Origin: Gammaproteobacteria bacterium
Lineage (GTDB): Bacteria > Pseudomonadota > Gammaproteobacteria > Steroidobacterales > GCA-2729495
Length of the DNA stretch: 64,000 bases
Assembly (NCBI GenBank): GCA_014337915.1
Contig: QUBU01000012.1
Location: 5,001-69,000, forward strand
Direction: 5' to 3'
The translations under genes were made by a program, and so were the position numbers. The notes below the pieces were generated by a model. It saw only the letters and a program-made list of their open reading frames with translations. It was not told where the DNA came from and searched no databases. Shown in pieces: positions 12,626-16,404 of this stretch (positions are counted from its first letter, which is position 1; the number at the start of each line of letters is the position of its first letter).

Positions 12626-12849
12626 TGCTGGTGGCGCTGCGCCACCTCAGGGCCCGGCCTGCGCGCCGGCCTGCCTGGCCTGGTACATCTGCCCAGTAAA
12701 ATCAGGCCGTTGAAGCCAGCCATGGACGCTCCTGCGGGCGACGGCAGGATCCGAAGGCGTCGGTTTTTCTTACAGAATCGCCGCCACTCTGCCTGCCGCA
12801 ACCCACAAAGAAACTGCAACGCCATGTTTCCCAAGTTGATTCACGGCTG

Positions 12850-12865
12850 TGGCACGGGTCTTGCT
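12850..12865 (+). promoter_or_regulatory. sigma-54 (RpoN) promoter
   Basis: TGGCACGGGTCTTGCT matches the RpoN consensus TGGCACG-N4-TTGCW. GG at 12851-12852 and GC at 12863-12864 have the required 10-nt spacing. Transcription would start near 12876. No ORF with a plausible ribosome-binding site begins before the intrinsic terminator at 13075, so the promoter appears to serve a non-coding RNA. A dyad GAAAC-N11-GTTTC at 12810-12830 lies upstream. Confidence 0.75.
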
Positions 12866-12875
12866 TCGAAACTGT

Positions 12876-13100
12876 TGCGCACAAAAAAGGGTTTCTACCA
12901 GCGGTAGCAGTGTTCGACATCTGAAACCAGACATCGAAGCCAGAAGACGCACACAAGAAGAAGAACAACAAGCAGAAGTAGAAGCAGCGCACGACAAGAA
13001 GAAAAACAAGAACCACCACGGCGCCGCTGAAACAGAAACCGGATTCGCGACAACAACAATAACCCGTGTAAAGACCCCGCTACCCAGCGGGGTTTTTTTT
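12876..13100 (+). ncRNA. candidate sigma-54-dependent Hfq-binding sRNA (CrcZ-like)
   Basis: About 225 nt between a consensus RpoN promoter and a strong intrinsic terminator, in a 515-bp gap. Sequence is A-rich, unlike the GC-rich surroundings. It has AAN-triplet runs: six triplets at 12955-12972 (AAGAAGAAGAACAACAAG), six at 12996-13013 (AAGAAGAAAAACAAGAAC) and four at 13052-13063 (AACAACAATAAC). Such A-A-N repeats bind the distal face of the Hfq hexamer, and six triplets would span all six subunits. Small hairpins occur near the 5' end (CTACC-AGC-GGTAG at 12895-12907). In Pseudomonas, CrcZ/CrcY are RpoN/CbrB-driven RNAs with AANAANAA motifs that titrate Hfq during catabolite repression. Homology is not shown; the analogy is architectural. 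RNA boundaries are estimated. Confidence 0.65.
13075..13100 (+). terminator. intrinsic terminator of the sRNA-like locus
   Basis: A perfect 7-bp stem CCCCGCT (13075-13081) / AGCGGGG (13086-13092) with a 4-nt loop is followed at once by eight T (13093-13100). It is the clearest Rho-independent terminator in the window, and is 41 bp before the btuD start. Confidence 0.93.
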
Positions 13101-13953: not shown

Positions 13954-13956
13954 GGT
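13928..13956 (+). promoter_or_regulatory. possible promoter for the cobalamin riboswitch-btuB unit
   Basis: TTGACG (13928-13933) and TAAGGT (13951-13956) with a 17-nt spacer overlap the 3' end of btuD. The predicted start, near 13963, lies just before the riboswitch P1 strand. The -10 element is weak, so readthrough from btuD remains possible. Confidence 0.4.
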
Positions 13957-13962
13957 TCGCGG

Positions 13963-14175
13963 CGGTCCTGCAGGTGCCTGGCGGCAGTCCACTGCCACCG
14001 GGTTCAACGGGAAGACGGTGCGCCGGTGATTCCGGCAAGGCCGTCGCTGCCCCCGCAACGGTAGGCGAAGGAAAGGGTGGTCACGCTGGCCACTGTGCGG
14101 CAACGCATGGGAAGGCGATCACCCCGGAGCATGCCCAACGCTCCCCTCGCGAGCCCGTATACCGGCCTGCAGTGT
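13963..14175 (+). promoter_or_regulatory. cobalamin (AdoCbl-class) riboswitch
   Basis: This leader element senses adenosylcobalamin and lowers btuB expression. Conserved elements appear in order: AGGTGCCTGG after the P1 strand CTGCAG (13968-13973), GGTTCAACGGGAAGACGGTGC near 14000, the core GCTGCCCCCGCAACGGTAGGC near 14048-14068, GGCCACTGTGCGGCAACGCA, and the B12-box GAGCCCGTATACCGGCC (about 14151-14167), closing with CTGCAG (14167-14172). A 7-bp hairpin (GGACAGC/GCTGTCC, 14249-14267) follows without a U-tract. With a hairpin next to the btuB ribosome-binding site, this suggests translational rather than intrinsic-termination control. Confidence 0.93.
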
Positions 14176-14352
14176 TTGTATCGCGTCAGGTCTCGGCGGG
14201 AGACAGCGTGACGGCTCGCAAGGCCATCGCTCATCCTCTCATCCAGGCGGACAGCCACGCGCTGTCCTGACGGCGTCGCCACGCGCGGCATCCCGGTCCA
14301 CGGGAGCCGCGGGCTGCATGCTGCCGCCTGCCGGAATCCGGCGCGCATTGAC

Positions 14353-14382: not shown

Positions 14383-16404
14383 ATGCGCACGAAAACTACC
14401 TGGGCAGCGCTGCTCCTGCCCGCACTGGCTTCGGCAGCAACCACCACCGGCGCGCCTGCCGGCCCGGCCAACGACACCATCGTCGTCACGGCCACGCGCC
14501 AGCCTCAACCCCTCGACCGGGTGGGTAGCGCCATCAGCCTGGTCACGCGCCAGGACATCCTGGATCGCCAGGCGACTACCGCGGCCGATATCCTGCGCGA
14601 CCTGCCCGGCATCGCCGTCGCGCGCAGCGGCCCGGTCGGCTCCCAGACGCAGATCCGCATGCGCGGCGCCGAGGCCAACCAGCTGCTGGTACTCATCGAC
14701 GGTGTGGAGGCCAATGACCTGGCGGGCGCCGACGAGTTCGCCTTCGAGCACCTGAGCAGCTACGACATCGAGCGCATCGAAGTGGTGCGTGGGCCCCAGA
14801 GCGCGCTCTGGGGCAGCGAAGCGCTGGCCGGCGTGATCAATGTGGTGACGCGGCGCCCCACAGCCGGCCTGCAGGCGGACGCGTTCCTGGAAGGCGGTGC
14901 CTACGGCACCCTGAACGGTGGTGCCTACGCCGGCGGCCGTGCCGGGCGCGGTTACGCCAGCCTGTCGGCCTCCCGCTTCGACAGCGACGGCAACAACGCC
15001 GCGCGCAGCGGTGAGGAGGATGACGGCTACGACAACAGCACCGCCTCCCTGGCCGCGGGCTTCGAGTTCAGCCCGACGCTGAAGTTCGACGCCAGCTACC
15101 GCCACACCAGCACCGGCAAGGCATACGACGTCGAGTCGCTCGCCACCGGCCTGCCGGCCGACGACGCCAATGGCGACGGCCGCGACGACGTCTTCCACAG
15201 CGACACGCGCCAGGACTACCTGCGACTCGGCGCCCACTGGGATACGTTTGCCGGCCGCTGGAACCACCAGTTCCGCTATGGACTGACGGATACCAGCATC
15301 GACACCCAGGCCGAGGACCTCTACTCCGCCGGCACCATCGACCGCACGAGCCAGGATGGCCGCAAGTCGACCCTGTCGTACCAGACGTCGATCGGCGTCA
15401 CCACCGACGCGCCGGGCAATCCTGCCGACGTGCTGACGCTGGCCATCGACCACGAGCGCGAGGAGTTCGACCAGCGCGGCAAGGTCAGCAGCTACGACTT
15501 CGACGGCGACGGTATACCCGATCTGGTCTACGACCCCAACCAGAGCCCGTCCATGCACCGCATGGGCTATGTCGCCGAGTACATCGCCACGGTCAGCGAC
15601 GAGCTGACGCTGGCGGCCAGTATCCGCCATGACGATTACTCGGACTTCGAGGATGCGGACACCTGGCGCGGCACCGCCAGCTGGCGCCCGGCCGGCGGCC
15701 CGACCCGCCTGCATGCCAGCATCGGCACCGGCGTGAAGGCGCCAACCTTCACCGAGCGCTTTGGCTACTACCCGCAGCAGTTCGCCGGCAACCCGTCGCT
15801 GAAGCCGGAGGAGTCCACGGGCTGGGATATCGGTGTCGAGCAGCGCCTGGCCGACGGCCGCATCGTCGCCGATGTCACCTACTTCCGTGCCGACCTCGAG
15901 GATGAGATCAACGGTACCTACTGCTGTGCCGCTGGCCTGTACACCGCCATCAACATGGACGGAAAGAGCGAGCGCCGTGGCGTGGAGCTATCCGGCAGCG
16001 CACGGCTCTCGCAGGCCCTGACGCTCGACGCCAGCTACACCTACACCGACGCCACCGAACCCGCGCCCGGCGGCGGCGACCGGCACGAGGTGCGCCGGCC
16101 CTGGCACACGGCGGCGCTGAACCTCGACGGCAAGTGGCTGTCCGGGCGCCTGGGACTTAACCTCGGCATCGCCTATACCGGCGATCGCGAGGACGTCTAC
16201 TTCGACGGCAGCTTCACGCCGCACCGCGTGGAACTCGACAACTACACGCTGGTGACCGTCGCGGCCAGCTACGACATCACCCAGCGGATCAGCGTCTACG
16301 GCCGCGTGGAGAACGCCCTCGACAGCGACTACGAGGATGTCTACGGCTTCAACACGCCGGGTGCCGCCGCCTACCTCGGCCTGCGCCTCGCCATGGACCG
16401 CTGA
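14383..16404 (+). CDS. btuB: TonB-dependent vitamin B12 outer-membrane receptor
   Basis: Imports cobalamin across the outer membrane using TonB energy. 673 aa: signal peptide (to about residue 25), TonB box NDTIVVTATR (about 28-37), plug domain with RMRGAEANQLLVLIDGVEAND and IEVVRGPQSALWGSEALAGVI, then a 22-strand-type barrel. Two barrel loops carry EF-hand-like acidic motifs (DDANGDGRDD near residue 260 and DFDGDGIPD near 373), reminiscent of the calcium loops of E. coli BtuB. The C-terminus ends in AMDR rather than the usual aromatic residue. It has a strong Shine-Dalgarno (GAGGAAA). The cobalamin riboswitch upstream makes the substrate assignment firm. Confidence 0.94.
   Translation: MRTKTTWAALLLPALASAATTTGAPAGPANDTIVVTATRQPQPLDRVGSAISLVTRQDILDRQATTAADILRDLPGIAVARSGPVGSQTQIRMRGAEANQLLVLIDGVEANDLAGADEFAFEHLSSYDIERIEVVRGPQSALWGSEALAGVINVVTRRPTAGLQADAFLEGGAYGTLNGGAYAGGRAGRGYASLSASRFDSDGNNAARSGEEDDGYDNSTASLAAGFEFSPTLKFDASYRHTSTGKAYDVESLATGLPADDANGDGRDDVFHSDTRQDYLRLGAHWDTFAGRWNHQFRYGLTDTSIDTQAEDLYSAGTIDRTSQDGRKSTLSYQTSIGVTTDAPGNPADVLTLAIDHEREEFDQRGKVSSYDFDGDGIPDLVYDPNQSPSMHRMGYVAEYIATVSDELTLAASIRHDDYSDFEDADTWRGTASWRPAGGPTRLHASIGTGVKAPTFTERFGYYPQQFAGNPSLKPEESTGWDIGVEQRLADGRIVADVTYFRADLEDEINGTYCCAAGLYTAINMDGKSERRGVELSGSARLSQALTLDASYTYTDATEPAPGGGDRHEVRRPWHTAALNLDGKWLSGRLGLNLGIAYTGDREDVYFDGSFTPHRVELDNYTLVTVAASYDITQRISVYGRVENALDSDYEDVYGFNTPGAAAYLGLRLAMDR

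Follow-up and report, generated by a model that had tools for sequence, protein, structure and literature searches.

The window analysed here, a 64,000-nt stretch of contig QUBU01000012.1 from a gammaproteobacterium of the order Steroidobacterales, carries what comparative analysis identifies as a small-RNA (sRNA) gene. The locus is syntenic among relatives, with a TolB-like/amidohydrolase gene on one side and B12-related genes on the other. In the window, the latter form a B12 uptake cluster of an ABC ATPase, a cobalamin riboswitch (RF00174, 88.9 bits, 13955-14184), a TonB-dependent B12-receptor-like gene (14383-16401) and then a corrinoid adenosyltransferase-like gene. The elements of the RNA locus are as follows:

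12759-12774, + strand: upstream activator site GTCGGTTTTTCTTACA, predicted PrsR box (Haft motif 1), at a fixed position in homologs
12850-12865, + strand: sigma-54 -24/-12 promoter TGGCACG-GGTC-TTGCT (TGGCACG-N4-TTGCT), exact consensus by direct reading
12876-13100, + strand: sRNA gene, about 225 nt, conserved transcript block plus terminator
12877-12879, + strand: 5' arm of P0, GCG, pairing with CGC at 13046-13048; 95% of cells paired
12890-12896, + strand: 5' arm of the closing stem P1, GGUUUCU, pairing with 13034-13040
12913-12938, + strand: hairpin UUCGA-CA-UCUG...CAGA-CA-UCGAA with a symmetric internal loop; 93% of cells paired (28 homologs folded)
12939-12948, + strand: conserved unpaired segment around GCCAGAAGA, near-invariant in the family; candidate seed or start of an ARN run
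12955-12972, + strand: AAN block 1, six triplets; A at triplet positions 1/2/3 = 0.90/0.96/0.06 (27 homologs)
12996-13013, + strand: AAN block 2, six triplets; A at positions 1/2/3 = 0.79/0.99/0.18 (27 homologs)
13034-13040, + strand: 3' arm of P1, AGAAACC, partner of 12890-12896
13044-13066, + strand: most conserved block, TTCGCGACAACAACAATAACCCG, near-invariant, containing AAN block 3
13052-13063, + strand: AAN block 3, four triplets; A at positions 1/2/3 = 1.00/1.00/0.05 (27 homologs)
13075-13100, + strand: intrinsic terminator, 7-bp stem CCCCGCT (13075-13081)/AGCGGGG (13086-13092), then T8 (13093-13100)

The start near 12876 was inferred as the position 12 nt 3' of the -12 GC. A first-pass annotation of this DNA had placed the exact sigma-54 promoter and the AAN blocks of six, six and four triplets at these positions, correctly to the base, and direct reading also confirms its terminator of a 7-bp stem plus T8. 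Its statement that the interval holds no credible ORF stands as well, since this copy's transcript contains no ATG and the homologs have neither a conserved reading frame nor an AUG position in common. It did not note the activator (enhancer) site or the long-range stem, nor that the gene is conserved across the family.

If one mismatch is tolerated, chance alone would produce the sigma-54 pattern 1.3 times per window. The promoter alone therefore proves little, and the case for an RNA gene rests on conservation and on the excess of AAN motifs. Of 60 related genomes searched at the nucleotide level, 33 gave matches, a few of them short or confined to the terminator; most members of the family have a homolog at the syntenic place. 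The common architecture of 28 homologs comprises the promoter, GCGCACAAAAAAGGTTTCT, the hairpin, an A-rich loop, AGAAACC, TTCGCGACAACAACAATAACCCGT and the terminator with T8; the promoter pattern TGGCA[CT][GA]N4TTGC occurs in 28/28 of these oriented family loci, and T8 in the terminator of every aligned homolog. Because the 28 family homologs examined share the promoter site, the AAN blocks and the terminator, which is the comparison that the first-pass annotation had proposed, we regard the matter as settled: judged by its sequence conservation, the locus holds a genuine small-RNA gene whose conservation runs deep. Among 369 class-level genomes searched with a covariance model of the RNA (R1), only two family members matched strongly; weaker matches (21-36 bits) were mostly short stretches and were left out as homologs. 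A search of the region against Rfam returned no family beyond chance terminator-like matches, and in the open-access literature we found no earlier description of the RNA and no paper joining PEP-CTERM with a small RNA and Hfq.

This copy holds 10 AANAANAA motifs, compared with 0.8 in dinucleotide shuffles (0/300), and the homologs (n=28) hold 5-12 each, compared with 0.3-1.4 in shuffles. Averaged by block, A occupies the first two triplet positions in 79-100% of cases and the third in 5-18%, where several bases occur. The homologs thus keep the A-A-N phase but differ at the N position, a pattern indicating that the triplets are under selection. The distal face of Hfq binds ARN repeats, a rule that predicts such phasing (PMC6422490). 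Each six-triplet block is predicted to fit the distal face of one Hfq hexamer, and the T8 tract is also a potential U tail for the proximal face. The persistence of the AAN phase despite sequence drift offers a direct test of natural selection by the Hfq distal face.

When the homologs are folded one at a time, 11-26 long-range pairs join the 5' region to the stretch immediately preceding the last AAN block. In P1, 93% of cells are paired and both sides have changed in four of the seven pairs; P2, a more variable part of the stem, lies outside the fixed alignment and was seen in single folds only. The overall covariation score exceeds that of all 500 shuffles, a result that related sequences can also give without structure. 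In folds of the homologs, AAN bases are predicted to be unpaired with values of 0.79-1.00, typically about 0.97. According to these models, a covarying long-range stem is predicted to close the RNA and leave the AAN blocks about 97% unpaired. Two other unpaired stretches are conserved, namely CCACCAC and GCCAGAAGA, the latter being kept also in the divergent copies of G011 and G042 (L087, L106).

Upstream of the promoter, a GTCGN7TKAC (GTCG-N7-T[TG]AC) box lies 91(+-1) nt before the -24 box in 28/28 homologs. Haft et al. (2006) described a proteobacterial promoter of PEP-CTERM genes, in which motif 1, predicted to bind PrsR, ends in TTTACA/TTACA and lies about 63 nt before the sigma-54 motif 2, with a spacer of 32-92 nt (PMC1569441). 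GTCGGTTTTTCTTACA ends 75 nt before TGGCAC, which places the pair within the published motif 1/motif 2 promoter. For pepA in Aquincola, RpoN dependence has been shown and PrsR dependence was left open (PMC9850573). Box and sigma-54 promoter together occur at 66 sites in the 60 relatives, where the reversed pattern has 0 sites. Across the order, 180 of 396 genomes have such sites, with no reversed-pattern control among the matches listed. We fetched 80 distinct sites (L086-L163), of which 12, two of them weak, were set aside as sRNA-like; L102 and L103, with weak sRNA-like tails, were left out of the homolog count. A regular expression labelled 40 of the 68 non-sRNA sites as PEP-CTERM, and about 36 of the 68 were convincing on reading: a few labels were false or in wrong frames, with some such loci carrying the signal in another frame, and 13 further open frames run past the end of the fetched DNA. 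In the window's own genome, the second box site lies before the gene of a predicted secreted protein with VPAPGAAWLLGSGLMSLLGLARRRSK at its end, the only PEP-CTERM gene found there with the strict box. By its motifs and spacing, the box plus promoter of the sRNA is the published PEP-CTERM regulon promoter, and because of the upstream box, control of the sRNA by PrsR is strongly indicated.

Several other observations were made on these promoters. The box-to-promoter span at the 80 sites takes only the values 82-85, 92-98 and 104-107 nt, with nothing between, in a set that was fetched partly by span and from which no intermediate class was knowingly left out; the steps between the classes are close to one helical turn, which would follow if PrsR has to sit on one face of the DNA. 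A span of 104-107 nt was considered as a mark of the sRNA and dropped, as PEP-CTERM genes share it. The inverted repeat TGTC-N9-GACA, a weak lead from the commonest upstream inverted repeat, was superseded by the box read from the alignment. In one relative (G018:C28:17766-17858), the neighbourhood of the sRNA also includes a PEP-CTERM gene that has a box and promoter of its own, about 1.8 kb downstream of the box of the sRNA. At L152 (G272:C103:162582), a short ORF follows the box, and its terminus (VTRPTLYDLM) resembles the DNA-binding end of PrsR; it may be a piece of a regulator gene or a case of autoregulation. Similar predicted membrane-protein frames lacking a PEP-CTERM end follow the box in two families (L101, G051:C17; L117, G040:C26) and may represent a further regulon member. 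A palindrome around TGGTGCCTGACATATTTTC/GAAAATATGTCAGGCACCA lies just upstream of the box of a PEP-CTERM gene (L056, about 1612-1658); because its translation, CLTYFLENMSGT, is found again towards the end of that gene, it looks like a dispersed repeat.

In family f6, the box precedes AAN-rich terminated RNAs in six genomes. Four of these loci were compared by position, as was one in f7, and all five map to the genomic place of the window locus or close to it. Given this position, the f6/f7 copies are very probably orthologs of the window RNA in which most of the sequence has changed, while box, promoter, AAN runs and terminator remain. Within the window's own family, the G011 copy has diverged too and is also syntenic. 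AAN-rich terminated RNAs with the same box and sigma-54 promoter also stand at other loci in G039 (L100, C242), where the RNA precedes an aspartokinase-like gene, and in G057 (L108, C5); these possibly arose separately.

The protein partners are encoded in the window's genome: PrsR (716 bits), PrsK (527 bits), two exosortases (173 and 161 bits), EPS export genes, RpoN and Hfq. The Hfq keeps the SIYLVNGIKLQG and YKH motifs, which we take to be the residues of the distal and proximal faces, respectively, and for this reason the RNA is likely to bind it. At the threshold used, PrsR gave no match in four sRNA-bearing genomes, G015, G022, G025 and G033 (98%, 94%, 92% and 87% complete, respectively); there, another activator may serve, or the assemblies may be incomplete.

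These observations can be assembled into a putative pathway. The PrsK sensor kinase would activate PrsR, which would bind the box at 12759-12774 and trigger sigma-54 polymerase at 12850-12865, yielding an RNA of about 225 nt that ends at the terminator. The long-range stem would close the RNA and hold the two six-triplet blocks in an open loop, with the third AAN block and the U tail just outside. The RNA could then load several Hfq hexamers and, as CrcZ does, draw Hfq away from the A-rich translation start regions of other mRNAs, at the time when surface proteins and exopolysaccharide are produced. We favour, with modest confidence, a stand-alone PrsK/PrsR-RpoN-induced Hfq-binding RNA that is most likely an Hfq sponge; titration is the preferred mode of action because the RNA displays two complete six-triplet footprints and a partial third. 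Points that weigh against this reading are the four sRNA-bearing genomes with no PrsR match, the single PEP-CTERM gene that the strict box finds in the window's own genome, and a number of Hfq sites, three, that is lower than the six reported for CrcZ. The wider proposal, in which the PEP-CTERM/exosortase regulon has an RNA arm whose PrsK/PrsR-induced sponge relieves Hfq repression cell-wide together with the envelope and matrix programme, is more tentative, and we put it slightly below an even chance.

The main rival to the sponge reading is a class II base-pairing sRNA of the ChiX/MgrR type, Hfq-dependent and under the same PrsR/RpoN control, in which the AAN blocks and U tail would hold Hfq while GCCAGAAGA or CCACCAC pairs with mRNAs. 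Class II sRNAs do use AAN motifs, and sRNAs bound by Hfq typically end in a tail such as the T8 tract. In addition, the strong conservation of unpaired stretches other than AAN, with GCCAGAAGA persisting even in L087 and L106, speaks for this reading and remains unexplained by pure titration. However, 16 AAN units in three blocks, with two full footprints, exceed what one anchored sRNA would need, and both f6 and the g7 copies have lost the candidate seed but keep the AAN blocks. On balance we consider base pairing unlikely as the principal function, though a serious contender.

The remaining alternatives are much less probable. The first-pass annotation had read the locus as a CrcZ-like Hfq decoy, and part of this holds: a sigma-54-type promoter, a non-coding terminated AAN-rich RNA with triplets under selection, and a genome bearing Hfq and RpoN. 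The CrcZ-type CbrAB/Crc carbon-catabolite circuit is not supported. The CrcZ covariance model (RF01675) finds nothing in the region with a cutoff of E<=10, nor in the genome with one of E<=1, and the activator box is of the PEP-CTERM/PrsR kind. The proposed search for hfq, crc and cbrAB found hfq, no convincing Crc, and no EBP identified as CbrB by models that were not CbrB-specific. The closest Crc-like protein scores as an exodeoxyribonuclease III with its nuclease motifs kept, and since this best relative is catalytically intact by its motifs, the absence of Crc from the genome is only suggested. The annotation had itself remarked that the position differs from that of CrcZ beside cbrB, and indeed the neighbours in the synteny comparison are B12 and other genes, not cbrAB. 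A CbrB-driven catabolite-repression sponge is therefore very improbable. We give equally little credit to the idea that there is no separate RNA here, only an attenuated leader of the btuD-like ABC gene downstream, under sigma-54 control: the ABC ATPase does start about 40 nt after the terminator, but that gene was not found beside the RNA in G017 and the f6 genomes and lies about 0.8 kb further on in G033, the RNA being kept in each case; moreover, the terminator is conserved in all copies, and a separate riboswitch precedes the B12 receptor gene. Least credible of all is a short Lys/Gln/Asn-rich protein-coding gene mimicking AAN repeats. An open GTG frame crosses the region and AAN codons encode Lys and Asn, but the lack of an ATG here and of an AUG common to the homologs, indels between relatives of lengths not divisible by three, and selection acting on AAN triplets and base pairs all speak against it.

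The PEP-CTERM/exosortase system, which floc formation requires, is widespread among environmental bacteria, and the known members of its regulon are protein genes. If a conserved sRNA shares their promoter, it would add a post-transcriptional arm to the regulon and may link the building of the cell surface to cell-wide translation control. If the sponge reading is true, the CrcZ strategy reaches beyond carbon catabolite repression in pseudomonads, and Hfq titration would be a recurrent design, coupled in Pseudomonas to carbon status and in the present case to the assembly of the surface, where it has been kept at one locus over several families.

Compared with known systems, the RNA resembles CrcZ/CrcY/CrcX of Pseudomonas in its sigma-54-type promoter, its non-coding nature, its multiple A-rich ARN/AAN sites and its proposed action as an Hfq sponge. 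CrcZ binds Hfq via six A-rich stretches and acts as a sponge (PMC5501646); the present RNA has three predicted Hfq sites, is 225 nt long compared with about 400 nt, carries a predicted PrsR-type box in place of CbrB activation, is closed by a covarying long-range stem, and belongs to another locus and another lineage. With the PEP-CTERM regulon promoters it has the activator box, spacing class and sigma-54 promoter in common, whereas the promoter here drives a non-coding RNA. The AAN motifs and U-rich terminator tail recall the class II sRNAs ChiX and MgrR, from which it differs in its more numerous and longer AAN blocks and in its predicted sigma-54/PrsR control. Like CsrB/RsmZ, it presents repeated protein-binding motifs on a structured RNA under two-component control, which is predicted here; however, CsrB/RsmZ bind CsrA/RsmA through GGA loops, while the predicted ligand of this RNA is Hfq and its motifs are AAN triplets.
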